Assembly: GCF_024171955.1 (NCBI RefSeq)
Contig: NZ_JAMTCS010000010.1
Coordinates: forward strand, 186,001-250,000
DNA from: Promicromonospora thailandica
GTDB taxonomy: Bacteria; Actinomycetota; Actinomycetes; Actinomycetales; Cellulomonadaceae
Direction of reading: 5' to 3'
Length of the DNA: 64,000 bases
The notes beneath the pieces were generated by a model. That model had not been told where the DNA came from. It saw only the letters and a program-made list of their open reading frames with translations, and did not search any database. The stretch's first letter is position 1. Each line of letters begins with the position of its first letter. A program made the translations under genes and the position numbers. This document shows positions 1 to 47,152 of the stretch, piece after piece.

Positions 1-752
1 GCACCCGAGCCAGCAGCACCCGAGCCGGCACCCGTATCGGCATCCCGTCGATCCAGCGCCTCCGCGATGCGGGCCGCCATGCGTGCCTCGCGGTCGAGGG
101 AGCCGTCGGCCGCGAGCACGCTCTGCTCGTAGTCCAGGCGGGCCAGGGCGGCCCAGGCGAAGACGTCGTCGAAGAGCGTCCGCCAGTCCGCCAGGGCGCT
201 GCTGGGGCGGGTCTCGAACAGGTGGTCCCACACCTCGTCGTGGTCTCGGCACCCGAGCCGCCGGGCGAGCGTCGCGACCGCCTCGGAGTGCGCGAGGTAC
301 CGCTCCGACATGAGGGTGCGCGCGAACGGGTCCTCCTGACCCGAGACGGCGCGCTCCTCGTCCGACCGCTCCCCGAAGGACCGGTCGATGAACGCCAGCC
401 CGGCGCCCACGGCCTGCCCGGCGCGCAAGGCCACCCACTCCGGGGAGAAGGACGCGAGCGGGTAGAAGCCCGCCCCGGCATCGAGGCTGAGCACCGCGAC
501 GGGCGGTCGCGTGGCCTCGTGCAGCAGGTCCGGCACCAGCCGCGTGAACTCCTCGGGCCCCTCGATGAGCACGACCGAGGGACGCAGCTCCTCGATCGCC
601 ACCCGCACCGCCACAGCGCACGCGGGGCTGTGGTGCCGGACGGGAGCGAAGTAGACGCCGCGTTCGGACCGCAGCGTCCGGACGGCCCGCGCGGCGGAAC
701 GCAGACGGCCGGGGGCGGCCTCCCACAGGGCGTCCGTGGCCCCGGCCGTCAC
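1..752 (-). CDS. DUF5682 family protein (YehM-like), 3' end outside window
   Basis: The gene reads leftward from a GTG at 752 and runs off the window, so about 250 N-terminal residues are visible. The start overlaps the stop of the MoxR ATPase gene (GTGA), so the two are translationally coupled. The protein shows the family signature VYFAPVRHHSPACA near residue 45 and a following LIEGPEEF segment, typical of DUF5682. In E. coli the equivalent gene (yehM) lies beside yehL (MoxR AAA) and near yehI (DUF4132), yehP (VWA) and yehQ (SWIM zinc finger). Biochemical function is unknown; it is inferred to be the partner or substrate adaptor of the adjacent AAA ATPase. VWA and SWIM genes would be expected just left of the window. 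Confidence 0.85.
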   Translation of the reverse strand, partial: MTAGATDALWEAAPGRLRSAARAVRTLRSERGVYFAPVRHHSPACAVAVRVAIEELRPSVVLIEGPEEFTRLVPDLLHEATRPPVAVLSLDAGAGFYPLASFSPEWVALRAGQAVGAGLAFIDRSFGERSDEERAVSGQEDPFARTLMSERYLAHSEAVATLARRLGCRDHDEVWDHLFETRPSSALADWRTLFDDVFAWAALARLDYEQSVLAADGSLDREARMAARIAEALDRRDADTGAGSGAAGSG

Positions 753-1891
753 CGCCACAGCGACTCCGCCGCGCCGAAGAACGCCTTCCAGCCCGCGTCG
801 TGGCGTGCCCGCTCCCGGACGACGTTGTCCACGTAGTGCCGCAGCCGCCGCGCGTCCTCCTCCTCGCCCTTGAGCGCCACCCCGGCGATCTGGCGGGCGA
901 CCTCGGCGGTGGTCACGGTGCCGTCGCCCAGGTACCGCGCCTCCAGCGACGCCGCGACCGCGACGTTGACGGCCTCCGCCGTGGACATGACCGTCTCGGG
1001 CCGCTTCACGGGTGCGCCCTCGCGGGTACTGCCCGTCCGCAGGTCCTGGAACACGGTGACCAGCACCTCCAGCACCTCACGGGGCACCTCCGGGCTGTCG
1101 CCGCGCGGCCCGAGCTCCGCCTCGAGCTGGCGCTGGACGAGCTCGATCTCGAAGTCCCTGTCGCGCACGGGTGCCACGGTCTCGAAGCTGAACCGCCGCT
1201 TGAGGGCGGCCGACATCTCGTGCACGCCGCGGTCCTTGAGGTTCGCGGTCGCGATGACGGTGAACCCCGGGCGGGCTGCGACCCGGGCGTCGGGGCCGAG
1301 CTCGGGCACCATGAGCTGCTTCTCGGACAGGATGGACACGAGGGTGTCCTGGATCTCCGGGGCGCAGCGCGTGATCTCCTCGAAGCGCACGACGCGGCCC
1401 TCGCGCATGCCCGTGCAGACCGGGGAGGGCACGAGCGACCGCTCGCTCGGCCCCTCGGACACCAGGAGCGCGTAGTTCCACGAGTACCGCACGTGGTCCT
1501 CGGTGGTTCCGGCCGTGCCCTGCACCGTCAGGGTCGAGCTGCCCGACACCGCGGCCGACAGCAGCTCGGAGAGCATCGACTTCGCCGTGCCCGGCTCACC
1601 CACGAGCATCAGGCCCTGCCGCCCCATCAGGGAGACGACCGCGCGGTCGACCAGCGGGTCGTCGCCGTAGAACTTGCGGCTGACGCCGAGCTCCTCGGAG
1701 CCGACGACGAACGCCCGCACCGCCCGCGGGCTGAGCCGCCAGCCCGGCGGGCGCTCGTGCCCGCGCTCGGCGTCCCAGGCGGCGAGCGTCGCGAGCTCCC
1801 CCGCGTGGCGGACCTCCGCGGGCGGGCGGATCTCTGGCCCGGCGCCGGAGCCGGCAGCGGTGCCCGCGGGGATGGTGGTGTCGGTCGTCAT
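749..1891 (-). CDS. MoxR-type AAA+ ATPase (YehL-like)
   Basis: A 380-residue AAA+ ATPase of the MoxR group. Walker A GEPGTAKS is at about residues 98-105, Walker B VVRFEEIT at 167-174, a sensor-1 like ATANLKDRG at 214-222 and the arginine pair ALKRRF at about 230. The chosen ATG (MTTDTT) has GAAGGA five bases upstream; an in-frame ATG seven codons earlier has no ribosome binding site. MoxR ATPases normally act as chaperone-like remodellers together with VWA proteins. The gene overlaps the DUF5682 gene downstream and has its own RecA-NDp-type promoter upstream, so it can be induced separately from the neighbouring cassette. Family assignment is firm; cellular role is inferred. Confidence 0.92.
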   Translation of the reverse strand: MTTDTTIPAGTAAGSGAGPEIRPPAEVRHAGELATLAAWDAERGHERPPGWRLSPRAVRAFVVGSEELGVSRKFYGDDPLVDRAVVSLMGRQGLMLVGEPGTAKSMLSELLSAAVSGSSTLTVQGTAGTTEDHVRYSWNYALLVSEGPSERSLVPSPVCTGMREGRVVRFEEITRCAPEIQDTLVSILSEKQLMVPELGPDARVAARPGFTVIATANLKDRGVHEMSAALKRRFSFETVAPVRDRDFEIELVQRQLEAELGPRGDSPEVPREVLEVLVTVFQDLRTGSTREGAPVKRPETVMSTAEAVNVAVAASLEARYLGDGTVTTAEVARQIAGVALKGEEEDARRLRHYVDNVVRERARHDAGWKAFFGAAESLWR

Positions 1892-1964
1892 GGCGTCCTT
1901 CGGTGATCGCATGCGGAGAGACCACGACAGCCCAGGTCAGGGCCACTGAGGTCAGCGTGCGATC

Positions 1965-1987
1965 AAGGTAGCGGGAGTCACTGACAC
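1965..1987 (-). promoter_or_regulatory. RecA-NDp (PafBC-type) DNA-damage promoter motif
   Basis: On the minus strand the sequence reads TGTCAGTG, eight bases, then TACCTT. This fits the mycobacterial RecA-NDp consensus tTGTCRGtg-N8-TAnnnT recognised with the WYL activator PafBC. The -10 lies about 70 bp before the MoxR start codon. An almost identical 30-bp block precedes the DUF4132 gene at 7510-7532. Confidence 0.7.
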
Positions 1988-2048
1988 GCCCGCCGGGCCG
2001 GGCGGCCGGCACCAGACGCCCCGGCAGACGCCCGCAGCCGGCGCATGC

Positions 2049-2675
2049 TCAGACGAGCTCCGCGACCCCCGCGTACGTCGCCTGCGCGGGCGCCCCGGCC
2101 CACGTGTAGACCTGGACGACCAGCCCGGCCGGCGTCGCCTCGCTGCTGACCAGACGCAGCCCGGCAGGAGCGCCGCCGTCGGGAAAGAGACGCCTGCCCT
2201 GCCCGACGACGACCGGCGCGACCACGATCCGCAGCTCGTCGACGAGGCCCGCGGCGAGGAGCGACTGCGCGAGCCGGGCGCTCCCGTGGATCTGCAGCTC
2301 CCGGCCCGGACGCCGCGTGAGCTCCGCGACCTGTGCGGCGACGTCACCGGACAGCACCGTGGTCGGTTCCCACGAGCCGGCGGCGAGGGTCTGTGACGCG
2401 ACGTACTTGGGCAGGCTGTTCATGAGCGTGGTGAACGGGTCGGCCGGGTCGGTGATCTGCGGCCAGTCGCGGGCGAAGGCGTCGTAGGTGCGCCGGCCCA
2501 GCAGCAGCCCGTCCGCCAGACGGAGCCACTCCACGGTGCGGCGCACGAACACCTCGTCCATGTGCGGCACGAGCCACCCGCCCCGGGTGAACCCGCCGCT
2601 CGTGTCCTCCTGCGGTGACCCGGGCCCCTGCGAGACACCGTCGAGGCTCACGAACTGCATCAGGACGAGCCTCAT
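2049..2675 (-). CDS. RibD C-terminal / dihydrofolate reductase-like protein
   Basis: A 208-residue protein of the dihydrofolate reductase fold (RibD_C family), with the typical start MRLVLMQFVSLDGV, the GRRTYDAF segment and the C-terminal IHGSARLAQSLLAAGLVDE stretch. Members are NADPH-dependent reductases of mostly unknown substrate. The start is the ATG overlapping the stop of the upstream SRPBCC gene (ATGA), with GGAGG seven bases upstream; a longer reading frame starting at 2723 is out of place. It is the last gene of a three-gene operon with an ArsR regulator and an SRPBCC protein, a common actinobacterial cassette. Confidence 0.87.
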   Translation of the reverse strand: MRLVLMQFVSLDGVSQGPGSPQEDTSGGFTRGGWLVPHMDEVFVRRTVEWLRLADGLLLGRRTYDAFARDWPQITDPADPFTTLMNSLPKYVASQTLAAGSWEPTTVLSGDVAAQVAELTRRPGRELQIHGSARLAQSLLAAGLVDELRIVVAPVVVGQGRRLFPDGGAPAGLRLVSSEATPAGLVVQVYTWAGAPAQATYAGVAELV

Positions 2676-3163
2676 GCCCTCACCTCCACCAGCGCGGCGA
2701 GCTGCCGGGTGACGGTGCCCCACCCGTCGTGGAACCCGAGCTCCTCGTGCCGGTCCCGGTCGGCGGCGTCACGGTGCAGCGCCGTCGCGCGGTACGCCGT
2801 ACCGTCCGGGTGGTCCTCCATGGTGATCACGGCGGTCACGAACGACGTCGGCGCGGGACGCCAGCCGGCGACGAGCGCGTCGGTGAACACGATGCGTTCC
2901 AGCTCGTCGACGGCGAGGAAGCAGCCCGTGATGTGCGGGCCGAACTCGACGCCGTCCTGGCTCAGCTCCGTGCGGAAGGACCCGCCCGGGCGCAGGTCCA
3001 GCTCCCGAACCCGGCAGACCTGGGGCGCCGGCACCCACCACTGCTCGAGGCTCGCCGGGTCGGCCCACGCGTCCCAGACCGCGGCCCGCGGGGCGCGGAT
3101 CACGCGGGAGACCGTGAGGTCGAGGTCGGGACGCCCGCCTTCGCCACGGGTCGTGGTCGTCAT
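2672..3163 (-). CDS. SRPBCC domain protein (AHSA1 type)
   Basis: A 163-residue START/AHSA1-like protein: VSRVIRAPRAAVWDAWADP near residue 20, a WW pair soon after, and FVTAVITMEDHPDGT followed by HDGWGTVTRQLAALVE at the C-terminus are typical. Such proteins bind hydrophobic ligands in a deep cavity; the ligand here is unknown. The start (MTTTT) overlaps the ArsR stop by ATGA, and its own stop overlaps the next start, so all three cassette genes are coupled and probably repressed by the ArsR protein. Confidence 0.87.
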   Translation of the reverse strand: MTTTTRGEGGRPDLDLTVSRVIRAPRAAVWDAWADPASLEQWWVPAPQVCRVRELDLRPGGSFRTELSQDGVEFGPHITGCFLAVDELERIVFTDALVAGWRPAPTSFVTAVITMEDHPDGTAYRATALHRDAADRDRHEELGFHDGWGTVTRQLAALVEVRA

Positions 3164-3543
3164 GAGCGCGCCTCTTCCTCGCGTGCGGCGGTTTCGCGTG
3201 CCGTGGTCTCGCGCGCCGTGGTCTCGCGTGCCGTGACGAACTGCTCGAGCCGGTCCGTGCGCCCCTCCCAGAGGCGCCGCTGCTCGTCGAGCCAGCCCGC
3301 GACGACGTCGAACCGCTCCCGTTCGAGCGTGCACGTCCGGACCCGGCCGACCTTGTGCGACCGGATCCAGCCCGTGCTCTCGAGGTACCGGATGTGCTTC
3401 ATGAACGACGGGAGCGCCATGTCGAACGGTGCCGCCAGCTCGCCGACGCTCGCGGGCCCCGCGCCGAGCCGACCCAGCACGGCGCGCCGGGTCGGGTCGG
3501 CGAGCGCCTGGAACGTGCCGTCGAGCGTCGAATGCTGAGCCAT
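3160..3543 (-). CDS. ArsR-family winged-helix regulator
   Basis: A 127-residue regulator with the ArsR/SmtB start DGTFQALADPTRRAVL and a winged helix containing SVGELAAPFDMALPSFMKHI. No metal-binding CxC is visible, so it belongs to the metal-independent group usually linked to SRPBCC genes. The C-terminus carries a tandem ARETTARETTARETA heptad-like tail encoded by near-identical 21-bp repeats, which is unusual. First gene of the cassette with the SRPBCC and RibD-like genes and the likely autorepressor of it. Confidence 0.88.
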   Translation of the reverse strand: MAQHSTLDGTFQALADPTRRAVLGRLGAGPASVGELAAPFDMALPSFMKHIRYLESTGWIRSHKVGRVRTCTLERERFDVVAGWLDEQRRLWEGRTDRLEQFVTARETTARETTARETAAREEEARS

Positions 3544-3549
3544 ATGGCT
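3538..3549. promoter_or_regulatory. 12-bp palindrome over the ArsR start codon
   Basis: AGCCATATGGCT is perfectly palindromic and includes the ArsR start codon. Metal-independent ArsR proteins often bind such sites over their own start; the assignment is inference from position only. Confidence 0.35.
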
Positions 3550-3609
3550 AAGTTACTGACGCCCGACGGTAAGCGCAAGGGCTCAGTGTTCCTGCACGCG
3601 CAGGAGCGG

Positions 3610-6600
3610 TCAGTACTGGCTCTTCTTCTCCCAGTCCGCGTCGAACGCCCCGCCCTCGGCCACGGTCACGTAGTCGCGGTAGGACACCGCGAGCAGCACC
3701 CGGGGCACGTCCTTGACCGCGATCCGGCCGTTGTCGTTCCAGGTTCCGGTACGACGGAACACGAGGTGCCGGACGGCGGCCGTGATGTTCTCCTCGGGCA
3801 GGAACGCACCCGTGAACTCGATGTCGACGGTGATGCCGAGCGACGGGTACTCCCTGCGGTAGGCGGAGAACCAGCCGGCGTCCTCCGCCTGCGAGCGGGT
3901 GTAGCCGAGCTTCGTGGCGCGGCCGCGGATCGTGTAGGAGTCGCTGAGCCAGCCCTCGTGCGTGTCGATCACCCGCGCGTCGGCGGGCAGGTCCGGCAGG
4001 ACGACGCTCCCCTCGGCACCGAGTCCCTGGTCGAACAGCGGCGTGATCTCGTAGTCCGCGAGGTGCGCGCGCCACGCCGGCGCACCGGTCGCGGCGTCGT
4101 CCCCGAGGGTCGCCGCGTGCACGAGGGAGACCACGGCCGTGTCCGGCACCGTCACGTCCTCGTCGTCGACACCGATCAGCGCCCCACCGTCGCCGGGCCG
4201 GAACGTCACGGTCGCGGAGGCCCCGTCCGCACCGGGCACCTCCGCCGCCCACACCAGGCGGGCCGCGAGCCGCGCCATCAGGGGGTGGCCCAGTACGAAC
4301 TCCGTCCAGTCGGAGAGGCTCCACGTGCGGCCGGTGACCATCGCCTCGGCGAACCGCTGGGTCTGGAGCGCCACCACCGCCTTCAGCTCGGCGCGCGACT
4401 CCTTGAGCTGCCGCTTGGCGTCGGTGTACGCCTCGTCGTCGTCCGACGCGCGCTTGGCCGGCAGCGCCTTGACCACCTTGCCCGCCGGGTTGCGCAGCTC
4501 GAGCGTGAACGCCTCGGTGATACGCCCGGTCACGACCCGGTCGCCGTCGGGTGCGCCCAGGTCGAGGCGCAGGATCCCGTCGTCGTCGAAGCCCGCGGTC
4601 TGCACCGTGCGGTCGGCGAGCTGGTCGGCGTCCCAGCCGTTGCGCTCGGCGATGTCCTGCGCCAGGGCGGTCGCCGTGTCCTGGACCGTCCGCTGCTTGA
4701 ACCGGCGCGAGACGGCCAGGAGCTGCTGCACAGCGGCGCGGTCCCCGTTGGCGGCGAGCGCACGCACCAGGTACTCCGCCTGCGCGCGACGGCCCTTGTG
4801 CGCGGAGAAGTAGTGCTGCGCGGTCGTCGCGAGCTGTCCGCCCGGCATCCCGACGGTCAGGGCGAGCAGGCCCTTCTCCTGCGTGGCCGACCCCAGGTAG
4901 GTGGCCTGGTGGTCCCGGTAGAGACCCTTCCAGATGTCCTCGACGGACTTGGCAGCCTCGGCGGCGTAGTACTCCGGGTACTGCTTGACCATCGACTGCA
5001 GCCGGTCCCACGTGCCCTGGGCCAGGCGGTCGGCGTGCGCGCGGGACTGCTCGGCATCGGGACCGCGGGTGTCCTGGGCCACCCAGGCGCGCAGCACGAA
5101 CGACCCGAGGGCCGCCCGCGAGGCCGGGTCCAGCAGCCCGACGTACCGGGCGATCAGGCCGTCCCCGCTGGGCGACCTGAGCTTCGTGGCCAGGACCACC
5201 CACCAGCGCACCACGTCCGCGGGCACGACCTCGCCGGGCGCTCCGTCACCGGACCTGGCGCGCGCCGCCCAGCGCACCTCGGGCAGCTGCTCGAACGGGA
5301 ACCAGGCGAGGCTCGCAGGCATCCTGCCCCGGAGCCCCTTGGCGGCCTCGGCCTGCAGGACGTCGGGCGCGAGGTCGGCGGAGATGTCGTCGCCGAGCGT
5401 CTCCAGGGCGGTCAGCAGCGCCGCCCGAACCTCCTCGCGCCGCTCCGTGCGCAGGGCCGCGCGCAGGGCCGGCACGGCGGCGGGGTCACCGATGCGCGCG
5501 AGCCACGCCGTGGCCGACGCCCGGACCTCGCCCTTGCTGTCGGAGAGTGCCTGCTCGGCCAGGGTCCGCGCCCCCTCGTGGGCCTCCAGGACCTGCTGGG
5601 CCGCGAGCCGGTGCGTCTTGCCCGTGCCGAGCGCGAGCGCCGTGAGCCGGGGCAGCAGCGTGGCCGGCAGGGCGGGGAACTCGCGCAGCACCGCGAGCGC
5701 CTTCGCGGCGCTCTCGCTGCCCTCGCCCGTGCGCAGGTGGCGTTCCAGGATCTCGGGGCGCTGCGCGAACCAGGGCCACGCGACCCGCGCCGGCACCTCC
5801 TGCGCACCCCACCAGCGGTCCAGGACCAGCTCGGCGACGATCTGCTCGGCACCGGCGATGCCCGCGCGGTCCAGGCCCTCGTGCAGCTGACGCAGGTCGG
5901 TGAGCTCGCCGAGGTTCTCGCGCAGGCTCCACATCAGCGCGTTGTTGTCGCTGCGGCCGGTGTGCACCAGGGCGTGGAGCCGGATGGCGAGCATCAGGCC
6001 CTTCCCGGCGAACCGGTCGCGACGCCTGTCCGTGAGCCAGCGGACGAGGGGTGAGCTCTTCAGCTTCCTGGCAGGTGCGGCGGCGGTCAGCACGCGCGGC
6101 AGCGCCTCGACGTCCTTGGTGGTGATCTGCTCGAGCTGCCTGAGGTTGCTCTCGGCCGACCTCAGCAGCCAGTCCGTGCCGCCGCCGCTGCGGTTCTTCC
6201 TGATCTGCTCGAGGTTCGCCCGGGCCTCGACGGTCGCCTGCTCGACGTCGGCCCGCAGCCGCTCGGCCCAGTCGTCCTCGAGCACGGGGTCGAGCAGCGG
6301 CTCCCAGGCGGGCAGGTCGACGACGACGTCCTCCTGGGGCGACTCGAGCGCCCGCGCCCGTTCCACGGTCTGCTCCAGGAGCTTGAGCCGCGCGCCGTGG
6401 CCGGCCGCCGCCCTGCCGGTCTGGTCGCGCAGTGCGGCGAGCGCGGTCTCGCACGCGACCAGGCCGCCGTCGAGCGCGGCGAGGCGGGTCGCGGCCTCGC
6501 CCAGCCGCCCGGACGGCGTCGTGGTCAGGAAGGGTGCCAGCAGGGCCACCTGCTGCGTGTCCGGGAGGGTCGCGAGGTGCTGGAGCGCGGCGGCCCGCAC

Positions 6601-7431
6601 ACCCTTGGCGGGGTCGACGGCGAGGGCGGCCGTGATGCGCGCCAGGTCCCCCAACCCGGCCGGTCCGGAGCCGCTCTCCGTGAGCCGCCGCCCGATCCGG
6701 CCGAGCAGCGCCTCCTTGCCGGGGGCGGTCAGCGTGGGCGCCAGGTCGGCGACGACGGCGACGTGCCGCGTGACGTACTCGTCGAACGCGGCCGAGGCCA
6801 CGATGCCGTCCCGCGCGTCGGCGTGCCAGGACCTGCTCCTGGTGGCGCGGTGCACGATGCCCACCAGCACGGTTCGCGGGGCGTCGCCGGACGGGACGCC
6901 GCCCTCGCTCGCGGCCGCCTCGTACTCCTGGGGGGTCCAGCGCTCCCGGACGGCGCCGTCGCCGTTGCCCGAGCCGCGCCGGCCGGACCCGACGTGGCCG
7001 GTGTCGTGCAGCAGGAGCGACAGCCACTCGGGCACGCCCGGGATCTCGACGGTGTCGCTCACCTGGGCCAGCAGCCGGGAGAGCCGGACCACCTGCTCGA
7101 CGGGGGCGGCGGCGTAGAACCGGCGGCGGGCGTGGAGACCCTTGTCGGTGGTCCAGCCCTTGTGGGCGGCGGCGACCTGCTTGACGAGCTCGGGCGAGAT
7201 CCAGCTCGACCAGTACTGCACGCGACCCGGCTGGCCGAGCAGCCGGTCGACGTCCTCGGTGCCCGCCGCGGCCAGGCGCGTCAGGACCTCCGGCGTCGTC
7301 CCGTGCAGCACGTAGCCCGTCGCGTCCTCGTGAAGACCCCCGCCGAGCAGCGCCAACGGCGCCAGCGCCTCCGCCACGCCCCGCGCCGTCTCGTCGCCGC
7401 CCCGCACCCGGTCCATCAGCTCCTGCAGCAT
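3610..7431 (-). CDS. DUF4132 protein (YehI-like) with HEAT-type repeats
   Basis: A 1273-residue cytoplasmic protein. Residues about 600-720 contain HEAT-like helical repeats (e.g. GEVRASATAWLARIGDPAAV). The C-terminal part, from about residue 980 on, is the DUF4132 domain, recognisable by LADYEITPLFDQ, GRATKLGYTRSQAEDAGWF and VDIEFTGAFLPEEN. In E. coli the homologue YehI is encoded with the MoxR ATPase YehL and DUF5682 YehM. Here the same partners are on the same strand 1.7 kb downstream, with an unrelated cassette between. The ATG at 7431 has a weak GGGGCGAG ahead of it. The gene has its own RecA-NDp-type promoter. Function unknown; a large scaffold working with the MoxR ATPase is the likely role. 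Confidence 0.88.
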   Translation of the reverse strand: MLQELMDRVRGGDETARGVAEALAPLALLGGGLHEDATGYVLHGTTPEVLTRLAAAGTEDVDRLLGQPGRVQYWSSWISPELVKQVAAAHKGWTTDKGLHARRRFYAAAPVEQVVRLSRLLAQVSDTVEIPGVPEWLSLLLHDTGHVGSGRRGSGNGDGAVRERWTPQEYEAAASEGGVPSGDAPRTVLVGIVHRATRSRSWHADARDGIVASAAFDEYVTRHVAVVADLAPTLTAPGKEALLGRIGRRLTESGSGPAGLGDLARITAALAVDPAKGVRAAALQHLATLPDTQQVALLAPFLTTTPSGRLGEAATRLAALDGGLVACETALAALRDQTGRAAAGHGARLKLLEQTVERARALESPQEDVVVDLPAWEPLLDPVLEDDWAERLRADVEQATVEARANLEQIRKNRSGGGTDWLLRSAESNLRQLEQITTKDVEALPRVLTAAAPARKLKSSPLVRWLTDRRRDRFAGKGLMLAIRLHALVHTGRSDNNALMWSLRENLGELTDLRQLHEGLDRAGIAGAEQIVAELVLDRWWGAQEVPARVAWPWFAQRPEILERHLRTGEGSESAAKALAVLREFPALPATLLPRLTALALGTGKTHRLAAQQVLEAHEGARTLAEQALSDSKGEVRASATAWLARIGDPAAVPALRAALRTERREEVRAALLTALETLGDDISADLAPDVLQAEAAKGLRGRMPASLAWFPFEQLPEVRWAARARSGDGAPGEVVPADVVRWWVVLATKLRSPSGDGLIARYVGLLDPASRAALGSFVLRAWVAQDTRGPDAEQSRAHADRLAQGTWDRLQSMVKQYPEYYAAEAAKSVEDIWKGLYRDHQATYLGSATQEKGLLALTVGMPGGQLATTAQHYFSAHKGRRAQAEYLVRALAANGDRAAVQQLLAVSRRFKQRTVQDTATALAQDIAERNGWDADQLADRTVQTAGFDDDGILRLDLGAPDGDRVVTGRITEAFTLELRNPAGKVVKALPAKRASDDDEAYTDAKRQLKESRAELKAVVALQTQRFAEAMVTGRTWSLSDWTEFVLGHPLMARLAARLVWAAEVPGADGASATVTFRPGDGGALIGVDDEDVTVPDTAVVSLVHAATLGDDAATGAPAWRAHLADYEITPLFDQGLGAEGSVVLPDLPADARVIDTHEGWLSDSYTIRGRATKLGYTRSQAEDAGWFSAYRREYPSLGITVDIEFTGAFLPEENITAAVRHLVFRRTGTWNDNGRIAVKDVPRVLLAVSYRDYVTVAEGGAFDADWEKKSQY

Positions 7432-7509
7432 CTCGCCCCATCACGTCGTCGTCGGTCACCAGGGCAGAGCTCGCCCCAGGAGTGCACTGCTCGCAGCAGC
7501 ACGCGCCAC

Positions 7510-7532
7510 AAGGTAGTGGTGACCTCTGACAC
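7510..7532 (-). promoter_or_regulatory. RecA-NDp (PafBC-type) DNA-damage promoter motif
   Basis: The minus strand reads TGTCAGAG, eight bases, then TACCTT, about 80 bp before the DUF4132 start. The flanks GCGGGCG before and G after are identical to the copy before the MoxR gene, with the same spacing. Confidence 0.7.
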
Positions 7533-7578
7533 GCCCGCGGCGAGCCGACCGGGACCGCCCGGCCGGCCCGCCCGGCCG

Positions 7579-8901
7579 TCACGGTGTGAGGCGGTGCAGG
7601 TCCCGCGGGAAGGGCGTCACCTCGCGGACGTTGGCCGCCTCCACGAGGCGTGCCACCCACCGTTCCAGCCCGATCGCGAACCCTCCGTGCGGCGGCATCC
7701 CGTGCCGGAACGCGGCCAGGTAGGAGTCGTACGACGCCGGGTCCTCACCCCGGGCCCGGATCGCCGCCACGTAGTCGCCGTGCCGGTGCAGCCGCTGCCC
7801 TCCGGTGACCAGCTCGAGGCCGCGGAACAGCAGGTCGAAGCTGTTGCTCCACCGGCCGCTGCCGGGCTCCGGGTGCGTGTAGAAGGGCCGCTTCGCCAGG
7901 GGGTACCCCTCGACCGCCACGAAGTCCGACCCGTGCTCCGCGAGCGCCCACTCCCCCAGGGCGCGCTCGTGCTCGGGCGCCAGGTCGGGCTCGTCCGCCG
8001 GCGCCCCCACCAGCTCCAGCGCCCGGGAGAAGTGCAGCACCGGGAGCTGCTCGGGCACCTCGGGCACCCGGACGCCGAGCCGTGCGGCGGCGTCCGACCC
8101 GCGGACGGCGTCGGCCATGCCTGCGAGGACGTCGCGCAGCACGGCGAGCACGTCCCGGTGGTCCCGGACGAACCCGAGCTCGACGTCGAGGGAGCGGTAC
8201 TCCGCGAGGTGCCGCACGGTGTCGTGCGGCTCGGCCCGGAAGACGGGACCCACCTCGTAGACCCGCTCGAAGACGCCGACCATCTGCTGCTTGTAGAACT
8301 GCGGCGACTGCGCCAGGTAGGCGGGCCTGCCGAAGTAGTCCACGGCGAACACGTCCGCCCCGGACTCCGTGGCCGAACCCACCAGCTTCGGCGTGCAGAC
8401 CTCGGTGAACCCGGCGGCGTCGAGCGTCGCCCGGAAGCCGCGCAGGCTCGCCGCCGCGACCTCCCAGTACGCCTTGCGGACGGGGTGCCGCCAGGCGACG
8501 GCGGCGTGGTCGAGCAGCGTGGGCAGGGACGCGGTCGGCGCCGGGCGCCAGAGCTCGACGGGCGGCGTCTCGGCCGCGTCGGTCAGGGGTTCGATCACGA
8601 GCTCCGCGGCGCCGGACGCGGTGACCTCCACCCCGCCCGGACCCTGCGGGTTCGCGGTGACCGTGCCGGTCACCGCGACCGTCGTCTCCTCGGGCGGCAC
8701 CCGCCGGTCGTCACCCCGCACCACGACCTGGGCCAGTCCGGTGCGGTCGCGCAGCACCAGGAACGTGACGGTCGCGAGCTCGCGACGCCGGTGCACCCAG
8801 CCCTGCAGGCGCACGACGGTACCCGGCGGCACGGCGGGAAGGTCGGCGGCGAGCGTCCTGGGCGGGGTGGTGCTCGGGTACGGCAAGGGTGGTCTCATCA
8901 T
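7579..8901 (-). CDS. aspS: Archaeal-type aspartate--tRNA(Asp/Asn) ligase (AspS2)
   Basis: A 440-residue class IIb aminoacyl-tRNA synthetase. The N-terminal OB fold binds the anticodon (VVRLQGWVHRRRELATVTF, about residues 28-46). Class II motif 2 is FRAEPHDTVRHLAEYRSLD and motif 3 is GGFAIGLERWVARL near the C-terminus. It lacks the large GAD insertion of bacterial AspRS (about 590 residues), so it is the short archaeal/eukaryal type found as a second copy in some bacteria, often charging tRNA(Asn) with Asp for the amidotransferase route. Two adjacent ATGs (8901, 8898) follow GGAGGA; longer frames to 9003 run into the leader. The leader looks like a T-box, so expression probably follows tRNA charging. 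Confidence 0.88.
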   Translation of the reverse strand: MMRPPLPYPSTTPPRTLAADLPAVPPGTVVRLQGWVHRRRELATVTFLVLRDRTGLAQVVVRGDDRRVPPEETTVAVTGTVTANPQGPGGVEVTASGAAELVIEPLTDAAETPPVELWRPAPTASLPTLLDHAAVAWRHPVRKAYWEVAAASLRGFRATLDAAGFTEVCTPKLVGSATESGADVFAVDYFGRPAYLAQSPQFYKQQMVGVFERVYEVGPVFRAEPHDTVRHLAEYRSLDVELGFVRDHRDVLAVLRDVLAGMADAVRGSDAAARLGVRVPEVPEQLPVLHFSRALELVGAPADEPDLAPEHERALGEWALAEHGSDFVAVEGYPLAKRPFYTHPEPGSGRWSNSFDLLFRGLELVTGGQRLHRHGDYVAAIRARGEDPASYDSYLAAFRHGMPPHGGFAIGLERWVARLVEAANVREVTPFPRDLHRLTP

Positions 8902-9056
8902 TCCTCCTGCAGAGCGAGAGCCCTGGAGGAGCGGGCGGGGGCCAGGTCGCGGTGCCACCACTCCTTTGCCGGGAGACCCCGGCCTCTCGTCGGTACGCCG
9001 CACGCGCGGGCCGGGCGTCCGCCCGGGTCACCCGGGCCGAGGGTCGTCACGCCTCA
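8902..9056 (-). promoter_or_regulatory. Candidate translational T-box leader of aspS
   Basis: On the minus strand the leader contains GGAGTGGTGGCACCGCG (complement of 8948-8964), matching the conserved T-box core, with UGGC able to pair with a tRNA ending GCCA, as in tRNA(Asp) and tRNA(Asn). Further upstream, GGCGT and ACGCC (9049-9053, 9014-9018) can close a short Stem I, with two GAC (Asp) triplets at 9043-9048 just inside it. Just before the gene, TCCTCC can pair with the ribosome binding site GGAGGA. This matches the actinobacterial design in which uncharged tRNA frees the ribosome binding site. Folding was done by eye. Confidence 0.6.
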
Positions 9057-9475: not shown

Positions 9476-10399
9476 CTACACCGGTGTGGCTCCGGAGCCG
9501 CGGAACCCCGGGGATCCGAGCCATCGGCGCAGGGCGGCGGACACGGCGTCCGCGTCCTCCAGGGGCACGAGGTGGCCGCGGTCCGGGAAGGTGACGACCT
9601 CGGGATCACCGGGCAGCTGCGCGCGGAGCCGGTCCGCCTGCTCGAACGGGATCCACGGGTCGGCGGTGCCCCAGCCCACCCGGACCGGGCAGCGCACGTC
9701 GCCGAGGCGTTCCGCGAGGGGCCGGGTGTGATCCGGCGAGAGCTGCGCGATCTGCCGGTAGAAGGCCGCCTGACCCGTCTCGTCGAGCCAGGGTTCGGCG
9801 AGCCGTTCGACGACGTCGGCCGCGAGGGCGTGGTTCGCCGCCCCTGCGACGTACTCGCGCACGAGGGCGCCGTGCAGCGGACGCGGTACGGCCGCGAACA
9901 CCTCCTCGTGGCGGGCCACGAGACGGAAGAACGGCGAGCCCCAGGGTTCCAGCGTCACGACGTCCAGGAGGAACAGGCTCGCGAGGTCGACGCCCTCGAG
10001 CAGGTGGGCGCCGAGGGCCACCGCGCCGCCGATGTCGTGCGCCACCAGGTGCGGCCGCTCCAGCGACCAGTGCCGCAGCAGGGCGGCCAGCCGTCGCCGC
10101 TGGGCGACGAGGTCGACGGGGTGCGCGGCGTCCTTCGCCGAGGCGCCGTACCCGGGCATGTCCCAGAGGAAGACCCGGTGGTCCCGGCTCAGGGCGCGCG
10201 CCACGGGCGCCCACACGCGCGCCGACCACGGGGTGCCGTGGCAGAGCACGACGTCGCCCACCGGGGGCCGGTCCGCCGGCTCGAGCACGTAGGTGGCCAC
10301 GCCGACGCCGTCCTGCCCGCCGGCACCCGGCAGGTCGACGACGACGGGCGGGGGCAGCTCTGTCAGGGCATCGGGCCCAGGATCAGTGACATCAAGCAT
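9476..10399 (-). CDS. Alpha/beta hydrolase, haloalkane dehalogenase/epoxide hydrolase-like
   Basis: A 307-residue alpha/beta hydrolase. The oxyanion segment VLCHGTPWSARVW is near residue 50, the nucleophile elbow is AHDIGGAVAL (Asp instead of Ser, as in haloalkane dehalogenases and epoxide hydrolases), an acid lies in GTADPWIPF and the catalytic His in PDRGHLVPLE. The Asp nucleophile points to cleavage of C-halogen or epoxide bonds through an ester intermediate, but substrate cannot be told from sequence. The gene is divergent from the heme oxygenase, with 127 bp between the two start codons. Confidence 0.85.
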   Translation of the reverse strand: MLDVTDPGPDALTELPPPVVVDLPGAGGQDGVGVATYVLEPADRPPVGDVVLCHGTPWSARVWAPVARALSRDHRVFLWDMPGYGASAKDAAHPVDLVAQRRRLAALLRHWSLERPHLVAHDIGGAVALGAHLLEGVDLASLFLLDVVTLEPWGSPFFRLVARHEEVFAAVPRPLHGALVREYVAGAANHALAADVVERLAEPWLDETGQAAFYRQIAQLSPDHTRPLAERLGDVRCPVRVGWGTADPWIPFEQADRLRAQLPGDPEVVTFPDRGHLVPLEDADAVSAALRRWLGSPGFRGSGATPV

Positions 10400-10449
10400 C
10401 CGTCGACGTTAGCCCGGCGCCGGGCACGACCGGGTGAGCACTGGGTAGA

Positions 10450-10468
10450 CGAGGTAAGGCCCACCTAA
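10450..10468. promoter_or_regulatory. DtxR/IdeR iron box
   Basis: CGAGGTAAGGCCCACCTAA matches the 19-bp iron-box consensus TWAGGTWAGSCTWACCTWA at 15 positions, with both AGGT and ACCT half-sites intact. It sits in the promoter area of the heme oxygenase, so iron-loaded IdeR/DtxR would repress the gene. Confidence 0.7.
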
Positions 10469-10526
10469 CTAGGATCGCGACGTGATGACACCCTGTCAGC
10501 ACGTCGCCGTCGTCAGAGGAGACCCC

Positions 10527-11219
10527 GTGAGCCTGCCCGTCGAGGAACACGCCCCCGTCCCCCTGTCCACCCTGCTGCGCGAGGGCACCCGCGCCGCCCA
10601 CGGCGAGGCCAACTCCGAGCAGTTCGTCGAGCAGCTGCTGTCGGGGGCGCTGACCCGGGCCGCCCACGCCGACCTCTCGGCCCAGCTCCTGCCCGTCTAC
10701 GCGGCGCTGGAGGAGGCGAGCACTGCGCTGCGCGACGGCCAGGGCGCCGCGCTGCGCGACGGGCGGGACGACGACCGCGGCGGCGCCGGCCTGGTCTTCA
10801 CCGAGCTCACCCGCGTCCCGGCGCTCGAACGCGACCTGGCCTACCTCTACGGTCCGTCGTGGCGCGAGGAGATCCGGATCCTGCCCGCCACGCGGGCGTA
10901 CGCCGACCACGTCCGCGAGGTCGGCGGCAGCCTGCCGCACTACGCCGCACACTCCTACACGCGCTACCTGGGTGACCTGTCGGGCGGGCAGATCGTGAAG
11001 CGCATGATGAAGCAGCACTACGGTCTGGACGAGGAGGGCGTGGCGTTCTACACGTTCCCCGACATCCCCAAGGTCAAGGTCTTCAAGGACGCCTACCGCG
11101 ACGCACTGGACCGGCTCGACCTCGACGAGGCGGAGGTGGCCACCACGCTCGACGAGGTGCACCTGGCGTTCCGGCTCAACCGCGCGGTGTTCACGGAACT
11201 GGCTGCCATCCACTGCTGA
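10527..11219 (+). CDS. hmuO: Heme oxygenase (biliverdin-producing)
   Basis: A 230-residue heme oxygenase, which opens the haem ring with O2 and electrons to give biliverdin, CO and Fe2+. The family start LSTLLREGTRAAHGEAN carries the proximal haem-ligand His, and the distal helix HSYTRYLGDLSGGQIVKRMM holds the flexible glycines. The GTG at 10527 is preferred because AGAGGAG lies six bases upstream and the protein then begins at the family N-terminus; an upstream ATG (10482) adds unconserved residues. The iron box just upstream indicates a role in getting iron from haem when iron is scarce. No haem uptake genes are adjacent. Confidence 0.93.
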   Translation: MSLPVEEHAPVPLSTLLREGTRAAHGEANSEQFVEQLLSGALTRAAHADLSAQLLPVYAALEEASTALRDGQGAALRDGRDDDRGGAGLVFTELTRVPALERDLAYLYGPSWREEIRILPATRAYADHVREVGGSLPHYAAHSYTRYLGDLSGGQIVKRMMKQHYGLDEEGVAFYTFPDIPKVKVFKDAYRDALDRLDLDEAEVATTLDEVHLAFRLNRAVFTELAAIHC

Positions 11220-11237
11220 CGACGCAGGTCGGACGTC

Positions 11238-11247
11238 TGACATGTCA
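11238..11247. promoter_or_regulatory. Palindrome TGACATGTCA ahead of the flavoprotein gene
   Basis: A perfect 10-bp palindrome about 60 bp before the flavoprotein start, followed 17 bp later by another TGTCACA. It may be an operator for an unknown regulator; position is the only evidence. Confidence 0.3.
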
Positions 11248-11309
11248 CACGTCTGTCTTGTCACAGCCCGGACCGTCACGTCCCGGCCGGCTGCGGTGTC
11301 AGATGGAGT

Positions 11310-13046
11310 ATGCACACCACCGAACGTCGCATCTCCACGACAGCGCTCGTCATCGGTACGGGCGGTTCCGGCCTGCGGGCCGCCATCGAGCTCGCCGAAC
11401 AGGGCGTGGACGTCCTCGCGCTCGGCAAGCGCCCCCGGATGGACGCCCACACCTCGCTCGCCGCGGGCGGCATCAACGCGGCCCTCGGCACCATGGACGC
11501 CGAGGACAGCTGGCAGCAGCACGCCGCCGACACCATCAAGGAGAGCTACTTCCTGGCCAACCCGCACACGGCGCAGATCGTGGCGCAGGGCGCCGCCCAG
11601 GGCATCGCCGACCTGGAGCGGTACGGCATGGCCTTCGCCCGCGAGGAGGACGGGCGCATCTCGCAGCGGTTCTTCGGCGCGCACACCTACCGCCGCACCG
11701 CGTTCGCGGGCGACTACACGGGCCTGGAGATCCAGCGCTCCCTGGTGAACCGGGCCACGCAGCTCGACATCCCGGTCCTGGACTCGGTCTACGTGACCCG
11801 GATCCTGACGCACGACGGCGCCGTGTTCGGCGCCTACGGCTTCGACCTCACCGACGGCACGCGCTACCTCATCCACGCCGACGCCGTGATCCTCGCCGCG
11901 GGCGGGCACAACCGGATCTGGCGGCGCACGTCCTCGCGCCGGGACGAGAACACCGGCGACTCGTTCCGCCTGGCCGTCGAGGCCGGCGCCCGGCTGCGCG
12001 ACCCGGAGCTGGTCCAGTTCCACCCGTCGGGCATCCTGGAGCCGGAGAACGCGGCGGGCACGCTGGTCTCCGAGGCGGCGCGCGGCGAGGGCGGCATCCT
12101 GCGCAACGCCGTGGGTGAGCGGTTCATGGCGAAGTACGACCCCGAGCGGATGGAGCTGTCCACCCGCGACCGGGTGGCCCTGGCGGCGTACACGGAGATC
12201 AAGGAGGGCCGCGGCACCGCCAACGGCGGCGTGTGGCTCGACGTCTCGCACCTGCCGCGGGAGACGATCATGACCCGCCTGCCCCGCGTCTACCAGACGA
12301 TGCTCGAGCTGCAGATGCTCGACATCACCACCGACCCGATCGAGATCGCCCCCACCGCGCACTACTCGATGGGCGGGGTGTGGGTGCGGCCGGAGGACCA
12401 CAGCACCGAGATCGACGGCCTGTACGCGATCGGCGAGGCGTCCAGCGGCCTGCACGGCGCCAACCGCCTGGGCGGCAACTCGCTCATCGAGCTGCTGGTC
12501 TTCGGCCGCATCGTCGGGCGGGCCGCCGCGGCCTATTCGGCCGGGCTGGAGGCGCAGCGCCGCTCGCACGACGCCGAGGACCGTGCCCGCGCCGAGGTCA
12601 CCGACCTGCTGGCCGCCGACGGCCACGAGAACGTGCGCGCCCTGCAGCGGGCGATCCGCGACACCATGACCGAGCACGCGGGCGTCGTGCGGGACGAGGC
12701 GGGGCTGCTCGCCGGCCTGGCGGAGCTGGCCGAGATCGAGGAGCGCGCCACGCACGTCGGCGTCCACCCCGACATCGCGGGGTTCCAGGACCTGGCCCAC
12801 GCGTTCGACCTCAGGGCTTCCCTCATCGCGGCGCGCGCCACGCTGGAGGCGGCGCTGGAGCGGCGCGAGACCCGCGGCTGCCACAACCGCAGCGACTACC
12901 CGGACGTGGACCCCAACCTGCAGGTCAATCTGGTCTGGTCGCCGAAGACCGGCGTCGTCCGCGAGGAGATCCCCGCCGTCCCCGACGAGATCGCGGCCCT
13001 GATCGCCGCCCAGGAGGTCTCGACGGCGGGCAAGCTGGTCGAGTGA
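11310..13046 (+). CDS. Fumarate reductase/succinate dehydrogenase-type flavoprotein
   Basis: A 578-residue FAD enzyme. The Rossmann motif VIGTGGSGLRAAIELAE is at residues 14-30. DAHTSLAAGGINAALG has a His where FrdA/SdhA attach FAD covalently, which argues against L-aspartate oxidase. HYSMGGVWV, GEASSGLHGANRLGGNSLIELLVFG and a C-terminal HNRSDYPD complete the family pattern. It should interconvert fumarate and succinate, but no iron-sulphur subunit or membrane anchor is encoded beside it, so it is an orphan; its electron partner is unknown. It follows the heme oxygenase by 90 bp and ends at a very strong hairpin. Confidence 0.85.
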   Translation: MHTTERRISTTALVIGTGGSGLRAAIELAEQGVDVLALGKRPRMDAHTSLAAGGINAALGTMDAEDSWQQHAADTIKESYFLANPHTAQIVAQGAAQGIADLERYGMAFAREEDGRISQRFFGAHTYRRTAFAGDYTGLEIQRSLVNRATQLDIPVLDSVYVTRILTHDGAVFGAYGFDLTDGTRYLIHADAVILAAGGHNRIWRRTSSRRDENTGDSFRLAVEAGARLRDPELVQFHPSGILEPENAAGTLVSEAARGEGGILRNAVGERFMAKYDPERMELSTRDRVALAAYTEIKEGRGTANGGVWLDVSHLPRETIMTRLPRVYQTMLELQMLDITTDPIEIAPTAHYSMGGVWVRPEDHSTEIDGLYAIGEASSGLHGANRLGGNSLIELLVFGRIVGRAAAAYSAGLEAQRRSHDAEDRARAEVTDLLAADGHENVRALQRAIRDTMTEHAGVVRDEAGLLAGLAELAEIEERATHVGVHPDIAGFQDLAHAFDLRASLIAARATLEAALERRETRGCHNRSDYPDVDPNLQVNLVWSPKTGVVREEIPAVPDEIAALIAAQEVSTAGKLVE

Positions 13047-13059
13047 CCAGCCTCCGCTG

Positions 13060-13112
13060 AGTGCGGGCTTCTCGCCCTTTCCGAGGCTCGAAGAGGGCGA
13101 GAAGCCCGCACT
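13060..13112. terminator. Perfect 19-bp stem terminator
   Basis: Arms 13060-13078 and 13094-13112 are perfect inverted repeats with a 15-base loop, 13 bp after the flavoprotein stop. One of several unusually long perfect hairpins in this window. Confidence 0.8.
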
Positions 13113-13220
13113 CGACGGGGTGACGGGGTTCGGGAGGGTCCGGACGGCGCGCCGAACCGTGGGACGGCGTCGCAGGCGCCCCGGGCGGGTGCTTATGGTG
13201 TCGCCGCCTGCACCACCTGA

Positions 13221-14579
<1,359 letters not shown>

Positions 14580-14607
14580 CGCGCGGGCCCGCGGGTAACC
14601 TGCGGTC

Positions 14608-15630
14608 ATGAGACGCGTGACCCTCCAGGACGTGGCCGACCGCGCGGGGGTCTCGATGAAGACGGTGTCCAACGTGGTGCGCGGCTACCGGCACGTCAGC
14701 CCGGCGATGCGTGAGCGCGTGCAGGCCGCGGTCGACGAGCTCGGCTACCGCCCCAACCGGACCGGGCGCAGCCTGGCCACGGGACGGTCGAGCATGCTCG
14801 GCCTCGCCTTCCCCGACCTGCGGCGGCCCTACTTCGCCGAGCTCGCCCACGTGTTCGCCCGGGTCGCGGAGGCGCGCGGCTACCGCCTGCTGCTCGCCGA
14901 GACCGGCGCGACGGCGGACGGCGAACGCTCGGTGCTGCACGACCGCGAGGCCGGGATCGTGGACGGCATGGTGCTCCAGCCCCAGGTGCTGGCCGCCCGG
15001 GAGCTGGACGTGGAACGGCACGGCATGCCCATCGTGTTCCTCGGCGAGGACCCGCAGCCCGACGACGCCGACCAGGTCGCGATCGACAACGTCGCCGCGG
15101 CCCGGGAGGCGGTGGCCCACCTGGTCCGCTCGGGACGGCGGCGCATCGGCTTCCTCGGGCACGAGACCGAGCGGGTGTCGTGGACGTCGACGCTGCGCAT
15201 CGAGGGCTACCGCACGGCGCTGGAGGAGGCCGGGCTCGTGGTGGACCCGGCGCTGCTCGTGCAGCGGCGGCAGGACGGCGACGCGCGCGACGCCGAGGAG
15301 GCCCTCGACGTGGCGCTGGCCGCCGGGCTGGAGATCGACGGGCTGCTGTGCCGCGACGACCTCGCGGCGATCGGCGCGCTCCGGGCCCTGCGCCGGCACG
15401 GCCTCGACGTGCCGGGCGACGTGGCCGTGGTCGGCTGGGACGCCATCGAGCTGGGCGCGAGCACCGCGCCGAGCCTGACCTCCGTGGCGCCCGACACCCG
15501 CGAGCTGGCCGAGCGCGCCCTCGACCTGCTGCTCGACCGCCTGGACGGCTACGCCGGCCCGGGCCGCCACGTCACGGTGGGCCACACCATCGCGTACCGC
15601 GAGAGCGCCCCGAACCTCCCCACTCCCTGA
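14608..15630 (+). CDS. LacI-family transcriptional regulator
   Basis: A 340-residue LacI-type repressor. The DNA-binding head VTLQDVADRAGVSMKTVSNVVRGYRHVS covers residues 4-31, with the hinge helix GRSLATGRSS near 54-63, followed by a periplasmic-binding-protein-like sugar sensor (LCRDDLAAIGALRAL, VVGWDAIELG). It is convergent with the GH31/ABC transporter operon. It is the obvious candidate to bind the perfect operator at 21347-21362 and repress that operon until its sugar is present. Confidence 0.92.
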   Translation: MRRVTLQDVADRAGVSMKTVSNVVRGYRHVSPAMRERVQAAVDELGYRPNRTGRSLATGRSSMLGLAFPDLRRPYFAELAHVFARVAEARGYRLLLAETGATADGERSVLHDREAGIVDGMVLQPQVLAARELDVERHGMPIVFLGEDPQPDDADQVAIDNVAAAREAVAHLVRSGRRRIGFLGHETERVSWTSTLRIEGYRTALEEAGLVVDPALLVQRRQDGDARDAEEALDVALAAGLEIDGLLCRDDLAAIGALRALRRHGLDVPGDVAVVGWDAIELGASTAPSLTSVAPDTRELAERALDLLLDRLDGYAGPGRHVTVGHTIAYRESAPNLPTP

Positions 15631-46644: not shown

Positions 46645-47073
46645 TCACCCGCGCCCGGCCTGTTCCACCTGTTCCGCGACGGCGGCCCGGTCGATCAGCG
46701 ACCGCACCTCCGCGATGCGCCCGTCGTGGTAGCGGTAGAACACGTGCTCGGCGAACCGCAGGCGCGTCCCGCGTGGCGCGAACCCGAGGAAATCGCCCTG
46801 CGGCGCGGTGTCGAAGACGAGCCGGCAGGCCACCTGGTCGCCTGCCACGACGAGCAGGCGCGGGTCGTAGAACAGGTCGGGCGCGGCGGCGACGTCGGCA
46901 GCGATCAGGTCCCGGTACTGCTGCCGCGTGAGGCGTTCGTCGTTGTACGTCAGCTCGTCGTGCACGTGCCGCGCCAGGTCGTCGAACCTGCGCTCGTTCA
47001 GCACCGCGAGGTAGGCCAGATAGCGCGGCTCGAGGTCGTCGGTGTCGGCGGTCTCGCCGGAGTCCTCGGTCAT
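46645..47073 (-). CDS. NTF2/SnoaL-like ester cyclase family protein
   Basis: A 142-residue NTF2-fold protein: RYLAYLAVLNERRFDDLARHVHDELTYND near residue 17, RQQYRDLIAADVAAAPDLFYD and VACRLVFDTAPQGDFLGFAPRG, as in SnoaL-type cyclases acting in polyketide pathways, although no such pathway is near. The ATG at 47073 has GGAGGG upstream; the 16 codons before it lie over the promoter. A clean RecA-NDp-type promoter is directly upstream, suggesting induction by DNA damage. Confidence 0.85.
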   Translation of the reverse strand: MTEDSGETADTDDLEPRYLAYLAVLNERRFDDLARHVHDELTYNDERLTRQQYRDLIAADVAAAPDLFYDPRLLVVAGDQVACRLVFDTAPQGDFLGFAPRGTRLRFAEHVFYRYHDGRIAEVRSLIDRAAVAEQVEQAGRG

Positions 47074-47098
47074 GTCACCCTCCGCATCGTCGGACGCC

Positions 47099-47120
47099 AC
47101 TGTAGGACCCGACACCGACA
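47099..47120 (-). promoter_or_regulatory. RecA-NDp (PafBC-type) promoter motif
   Basis: The minus strand reads TGTCGGTG, eight bases, then TACAGT, an exact fit to TGTCRGTG-N8-TAnnnT, 25 bp before the chosen start of the NTF2-like gene. Confidence 0.65.
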
Positions 47121-47152
47121 CTCCCGCCGGGCCAGCCGATGTGCCGCCCTGG

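Follow-up and report, generated by a model that had tools for sequence, protein, structure and literature searches.

PafBC-type promoters suggest a DNA-damage-inducible MoxR AAA+ gene module in Promicromonospora thailandica and its relatives

The Escherichia coli K-12 yeh cluster (yehF/yehH, yehI, yehL, yehM, yehP and yehQ; molR) unites genes of the DUF4132, MoxR, DUF5682, VWA and SWIM families, and molR is listed among the LexA-regulated genes of this organism (PMC11039860; PMC4576408). In Deinococcus radiodurans (DRA0165-DRA0166), the DUF4132 protein DRA0166 was upregulated by mitomycin C in the wild type, a response that an irrE mutant lacked, and a DdrO site precedes the putative operon to which it belongs (PMC8533742). 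For PafBC, a DNA-damage regulator of actinobacteria, activation by single-stranded DNA and a −26 promoter element were reported (PMC11804915); what could be consulted of a Mycobacterium smegmatis PafBC study names MoxR1 and MoxR2 (−1.6 and −1.7) and not VWA or SWIM. Here we analysed a stretch of 64,000 nucleotides (nt) of P. thailandica (GCF_024171955.1, contig NZ_JAMTCS010000010.1, positions 186,001 to 250,000), referred to as the window, the left end of which carries DUF4132, MoxR and DUF5682 genes behind two PafBC-type (RecA-NDp) promoter sites.

The gene set of P. thailandica resembles each of these systems in part. It has the five families of the yeh cluster in identical order, which bears out and extends the initial annotation, where three of them had been placed together in E. 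coli; in E. coli, by contrast, a WGR-family gene of its own, yehF, precedes the run, and a LexA-like box takes the place of the RecA-NDp sites found here. With the mycobacterial PafBC regulon it shares the promoter motif and its spacing, a PafC-type helix-turn-helix (HTH) protein encoded in the genome and repair genes downstream of the motif, although the Promicromonospora and Streptomyces regulons are known here from sequence alone. The likeness to Deinococcus lies in the DUF4132 protein, the one by which the two were compared and which there rises on mitomycin C; the regulator, however, is DdrO/IrrE. Finally, a MoxR ATPase with Walker motifs and a VWA protein with a DxSxS motif are common to this module and to NorQ/NorD and Midasin-type machines, to which the module here adds DUF4132, DUF5682 and SWIM-like subunits.

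The promoter data presented below argue that the DUF4132-MoxR-DUF5682-VWA-SWIM genes probably belong to the PafBC regulon as a single module inducible by DNA damage, and that in this genome the module is very probably induced by DNA damage. The elements concerned, with lengths in amino acids (aa), are as follows.

1965..1986, minus strand: RecA-NDp/PafBC-type promoter 1, TGTCAGTG-N8-TACCTT, 0 mismatches to TGTCRGTG-N8-TAnnnT
7510..7531, minus strand: RecA-NDp/PafBC-type promoter 2, TGTCAGAG-N8-TACCTT, 1 mismatch to TGTCRGTG-N8-TAnnnT
1..758, minus strand: DUF5682 protein (YehM type), N-terminal part; Pfam DUF5682 1.4e-32; 937 aa in full, crosses the window edge
749..1912, minus strand: MoxR-family AAA+ ATPase (YehL type); Pfam AAA_5 1.7e-37; likely start at 1891 behind GAAGGA
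3610..7431, minus strand: DUF4132 protein (YehI/MolR type), 1273 aa; Pfam DUF4132 1.6e-30, HEAT_2 8.7e-8

The three family assignments, first made from the sequence alone, agree with Pfam. Likewise, the block GCGGGCGTGTCAG-N10-TACCTTG was located where the initial annotation had put it, upstream of the MoxR and DUF4132 genes on the minus strand, and occurs exactly twice in the window (reverse-complement positions 56463 and 62008). The fit to the RecA-NDp consensus claimed for both copies is complete before MoxR, with 73 nt to the likely start codon at 1891; the copy before DUF4132, 78 nt from the start codon at 7431, departs from it by one mismatch. Perfect RecA-NDp matches number two in the window (1965 and 47099), compared with a mean of 0.013, and at most 1, in 300 dinucleotide-preserving shuffles. 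LexA/SOS control was also considered: the actinobacterial SOS box has 79 matches with up to two mismatches in the window, versus 44 by chance, and is absent from the promoter regions 1892-2048 and 7432-7578.

We then determined the distribution of the motif over the whole genome. TGTCRGTG-N8-TAnnnT has 61 perfect matches and the reversed pattern none, and the variant TGTCRGAG, as in promoter 2, has 11 matches versus none reversed. For the 59 sites outside the window, a simple gene caller that favours the closest start codon called a gene within 400 nt at 52 and none at seven; 32 of these 52 have a leaderless layout, with the start codon 7-9 nt past TAnnnT, a count helped by the caller's preference for the nearest start. 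Products were identified among 46/52 scanned genes downstream of sites. The initial annotation had proposed a search for the motif before DNA-repair genes, and recA, uvrA, uvrB, uvrC, radA, recR, ung and nth all carry it. It also precedes dnaX, dnaE, mfd (partial), Mpa, dTMP kinase, ClpB and genes for HSP90-type, ClgR-like and RarA-like proteins, PcrA- and YoaA-like helicases, a DEDD exonuclease, a PD-(D/E)XK nuclease, an AlkZ-like protein and a RecQ-like helicase. A PafC-type HTH (HTH_PafC) is encoded at G000:C8:60998-61360 (E 4e-34). Judged from sequence, the motif thus marks a live regulon in this genome.

These counts bear on a sceptical reading, in which the motif matches would be no more than common promoter-like sequence and the blocks a duplication by chance. 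When up to two mismatches are allowed the window is indeed near chance (13 matches, 8.2 expected; 13 or more was reached in 9/100 shuffles), but the 61 perfect versus no reversed matches, the repair genes behind the sites and the retention of the site at the head of the module in relatives (see below) already make this explanation unlikely, and we consider it extremely improbable.

Other perfect sites lie before genes without evident repair role (L010, L015, L028, L034, L036, L043 and L047; loci are cited by L numbers), among them transporters, a sigma-70-type factor, a CoA-ligase-type gene and an aminopeptidase. Functions other than repair may belong to the regulon. RecA-NDp sites also stand before a proteasome ATPase gene and a 65-aa Pup-like gene (L054, G000:C14:25400-35300; the latter recognized by eye, with no family match), and these pupylation genes may be damage-induced here. 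A DUF4132-related HEAT/DUF1963 paralogue (L235, G000:C8:285500-294441, gene 2693-5239, minus strand) has a leaderless one-mismatch site of the TGTCAGAG type, 7 nt before its start.

To judge the module promoters in relatives, we compared the closest loci, which come from Promicromonospora, Antribacter, Myceligenerans, Oerskovia and Cellulosimicrobium and from one record titled Sphaerisporangium; the window MoxR is 89-95% identical to Promicromonospora MoxR proteins. Here DUF4132-MoxR-DUF5682-VWA is a single gene run, the gap from the end of DUF4132 to MoxR being ≤ 220 nt in 18/21 loci, and the promoter lies at the head, before DUF4132. Among the 21 related loci with both DUF4132 and MoxR (L113-L129, L131, L133, L137 and L140; L132, L136 and L166 were excluded as cut or lacking DUF4132), perfect head sites number 14, and five further loci (L115, L125, L128, L133 and L140) are one mismatch off. 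The other two are L137, with two mismatches and hence no head site, and L114, with a head zone cut by the end of the locus, no head site and a perfect site before a second DUF4132 copy. Family loci L093-L106, partly of the same species, gave a similar picture: 10/14 perfect, three with one mismatch (the window genome included) and one without a site (L105, cut). In control scans of 102 head zones at up to one mismatch, the reversed pattern was found in none and the opposite strand gave five. Eight site-bearing promoters aligned on the site were 91% identical in TGTCRGTG, 85% in TAnnnT, 67% in the spacer, 62% in the 3 nt immediately preceding the site and 50-57% elsewhere in the flanks, values that overstate the conservation of the site, as the promoters had been selected by it.

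In contrast to the head site, a separate site before MoxR was found in 4/33 loci, perfect in the window and L113 and with one mismatch in L114 and L115; 11 of these 33 partly repeat species counted elsewhere among them. Within the family search, 15/16 loci lacked the motif before MoxR. The earlier expectation that relatives would carry the motif before these genes was therefore borne out at the module head (19/21 at up to one mismatch) and failed at MoxR itself. From the sequence comparison, we regard the promoter ahead of DUF4132, where the run begins, as ancestral and the MoxR site as a local extra. In P. thailandica the module is in order and on one strand but split by two other genes, which leaves 1698 nt between DUF4132 and MoxR, compared with < 500 nt in 19/21 related loci. 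A tie between inserted genes and the second site was tried and rejected: a second site is missing from L125 and L128 despite gaps of ∼1.5 kb, and present in L113, L114 and L115, where the gap is short.

The single mismatch in the window's head site, TGTCAGAG, raises the alternative that PafBC in this lineage controls the inner MoxR promoter alone, the DUF4132 site having decayed. However, the same variant is enriched in the genome (11 versus 0), recurs in two Promicromonospora loci (L115 and L140) and stands where 14/21 related loci have a perfect site, and we consider such decay very unlikely. Control of the whole module by PafBC remains our preferred reading.

How far this arrangement reaches was assessed by order and class searches (297 and 394 genomes), which returned a close MoxR (E 1e-100) in 18 and 34 genomes. 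Outside the family there were 51 places with a match, of which we analysed 40; four of the 40 are on contigs also counted as L134, L145, L149 and L155. A perfect site was present in 16/40 order/class loci (L204, L205, L208, L212, L214, L215, L218-L221, L227-L229 and L231-L233), in every case before the head DUF4132 gene on the operon strand, with none on the opposite strand; the head-zone scan lists 15 of these, L221 being missed because its BLAST hit begins too far upstream. The module occurs in two layouts, either a long DUF4132 gene followed by MoxR (with a WGR-DUF4132 fusion in L212:4879-8604) or a short gene with the DUF4132 domain, a gene for a long protein and then MoxR (L208). For the second layout, the long protein of L208 (3175-8208) has 1677 aa and no clear Pfam match, and L228:2524-3378 is an example of the short stand-alone DUF4132 gene. 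In a 51-genome comparison, in which the window genome was counted through its MoxR site, a perfect module site was found in 21/29 genomes with at least 20 sites versus 5/22 with fewer (Fisher p 6e-4, from a hand-entered table and with relatedness not corrected).

Five plasmid records were also compared. A perfect site lies 85 nt upstream of the DUF4132 gene in Streptomyces sp. NBC_00984, whose module is of the second layout; this contrasts with the suggestion, from the initial search of a Streptomyces venezuelae study (PMC9380542), that the PafBC motif is not conserved in that species. The Embleya record has one perfect site, 3.7 kb past the DUF4132 match, and the S. cadmiisoli record a one-mismatch site before a VWA-AAA run; the Nonomuraea and Rhodococcus records yielded no RecA-NDp site. 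At L207, a locus without DUF4132 match, the MoxR match is preceded at a distance of 47 nt by a one-mismatch TGTCGGAG site (8269).

A number of observations weigh against membership of the module in a PafBC regulon. Besides the ordinary count of inexact matches in the window and its imperfect head site, both window promoters are without leaderless layout. Outside the family, a perfect head site is missing from 24/40 order/class loci; seven of those are one mismatch off, while 17/40 have neither a perfect nor a one-mismatch site (two of them without DUF4132 match). Similarly, in 8/29 genomes with at least 20 sites the module has no perfect one. Of 31 further actinobacterial loci within L113-L164, many from Actinomyces, Micropruina, Propionibacteriaceae and Bifidobacteriaceae, three have no DUF4132 and six a cut head; the remaining 22, outside the Promicromonospora-type group, include no perfect head site and four with one mismatch (L135, L143, L145 and L152). 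HTH_PafC was detected in 50/51 genomes, motif-free ones included, and in 5/14 controls, E. coli among them, and its presence is therefore non-discriminating. The site of the DUF4132-related paralogue is missing at both related paralogue loci (L108 and L109). Moreover, all loci compared are related by descent, and the counts are not independent events. Nevertheless, the motif before repair genes, HTH_PafC and the head sites in relatives together support the proposal of the initial annotation that a common DNA-damage promoter ties this AAA+ module to the damage response.

Links between the module and DNA damage were also sought in other bacteria. A LexA-like box (13/20 letters) begins 27 nt before E. 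coli yehF. We scanned 27 proteobacterial loci (L165 and L167-L192), 26 of which have a closed DUF4132 frame, for LexA boxes of the gamma, alpha and Gram-positive types. LexA control was rejected as a general rule, since 24/26 DUF4132 heads had no LexA-type box in the 400 nt upstream; this again counts against a uniform damage link. The two boxes found were a strict gamma-type one at −194 in Novosphingobium (L181), where this type is not expected, and a loose one at −367 (L184). On a Deinococcus taeanensis plasmid (L245:5086-13132) the genes follow a variant order, SWIM-DUF5691-MoxR-DUF5682-VWA, and the best DdrO-like candidate, 11/19 letters at 5049 ahead of the first gene at 5086, was dismissed as too weak. 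Taken together, the promoters described here and the published DdrO and LexA links make the module look wired to damage via three unrelated regulators. The damage link of the module is thus recurrent, but not universal, as the proteobacterial heads without a box show.

What might such a module do? The MoxR protein has the GEPGTAKS, FEE and TAN motifs (Walker-type) and scores 291 bits against E. coli YehL, and the solved sequences nearest to it (E 1e-5) are five, all Midasin. The VWA protein has the DxSxS motif. When its last 1194 residues were modelled with AlphaFold2 (predicted local distance difference test, pLDDT, 88.5), DUF4132 took the form of a long HEAT-repeat solenoid with the C-terminal DUF4132 domain; the model matches general HEAT solenoids, with template-modelling (TM) scores < 0.3 among the 50 matches listed. 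DUF5682 of the relative L125 has a confident predicted fold (pLDDT 88.6), for which neither a PDB match at E < 0.001 nor a sequence match was found. The SWIM-like assignment of a 776-aa protein, which gave no match in the Pfam scan, has a CxC...CxH pattern and the gene position as its sole basis. WGR domains, as in the fusion of L212, bind DNA ends in PARP1. From the MoxR/VWA motifs, the Midasin likeness, the HEAT solenoid and WGR, we infer that the products might act as an ATP-driven remodelling complex at damaged DNA.

In the sequence of events that we envisage, damage would yield single-stranded DNA and activate PafBC, which, if the Mycobacterium mechanism applies here, would guide RNA polymerase with sigma-A to promoters in which TGTCRGTG lies near −26 and TAnnnT at −10. 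In the split run of P. thailandica each half would be driven by its own RecA-NDp promoter. The MoxR ring with its VWA (MIDAS) adaptor could then pull apart a protein or nucleoprotein target, while the SWIM-like zinc finger and the HEAT-repeat DUF4132 arm, which certain relatives carry fused to WGR, would aim the complex at damaged DNA. That the module remodels a target at damaged DNA is a tentative proposal. Tentative, too, is the fuller account of a widespread, hitherto unrecognized damage-response AAA+ complex, independently recruited to PafBC, DdrO and LexA, that would remodel protein, or strip it away, at breaks and nicks in DNA.

Two other roles would be compatible with damage control. 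The module could be an anti-phage or conflict system of the vWA-MoxR-VMAP ternary type, damage-linked since phage attack damages DNA. Pairing of MoxR with VWA is indeed shared with ternary conflict systems, themselves also reported beside CRISPR loci; bpMoxR scored 25.2 bits, just short of the 27-bit cut-off, and the distribution is patchy, with copies on plasmids. On the other hand, PADLOC had no match for the DUF4132, MoxR, VWA and SWIM-like proteins here or for DUF5682 of L125, its single hit among nine proteins scanned being the WGR domain of L212. The conflict-system paper does not mention YehL, YehM, SWIM, WGR, MolR or bpMoxR in its main text, and the gene order is common to Actinobacteria and E. 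coli. None of the Pfam matches that the module proteins gave in general scans carried a VMAP name, no VMAP models having been searched by name. We consider a defence role unlikely. Alternatively, the genes could encode a NorQ/NorD-like metal-insertion or protein-maturation chaperone for an enzyme used at times of damage, DUF4132/MolR serving molybdate or another cofactor. Such a role would suit the precedent of NorQ/NorD, a MoxR/VWA pair that inserts iron in an enzyme, and the naming of E. coli molR for molybdate use. However, moeA and moeB were reported unchanged on DdrO depletion in the Deinococcus study (PMC8533742), and no metalloenzyme family was present among the scanned neighbours in the window genome. 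A cofactor chaperone, too, seems rather improbable. For the damage-response module favoured here, the promoter evidence indicates when it is likely to be used and under which regulator. A conserved gene set nearly absent from the literature thereby gains a testable role: DUF5682 was not found in the literature searched, which did not cover most subscription journals, and DUF4132 is rarely mentioned there.

Beyond the left window edge, the module continues with the remainder of DUF5682 (in L009), a CoxE-type VWA gene and the gene of the 776-aa SWIM-like protein. The genes that interrupt it and its upstream neighbour are the following.

2049..2723, minus strand: RibD_C-domain gene, outside the module, between DUF4132 and MoxR; Pfam 7.9e-26
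2672..3334, minus strand: AHSA1-domain gene, outside the module, between DUF4132 and MoxR; Pfam 1.2e-24
7579-9003, minus strand: class II tRNA-synthetase-type gene

Further upstream, an open frame of 1426 aa (10392-14672, minus strand), negative in Pfam, may be a real protein or a high-G+C open frame. The other perfect RecA-NDp site in the window, at 47099-47120 on the minus strand, coincides with the beginning of a short open frame, 46645-47121, on that strand.

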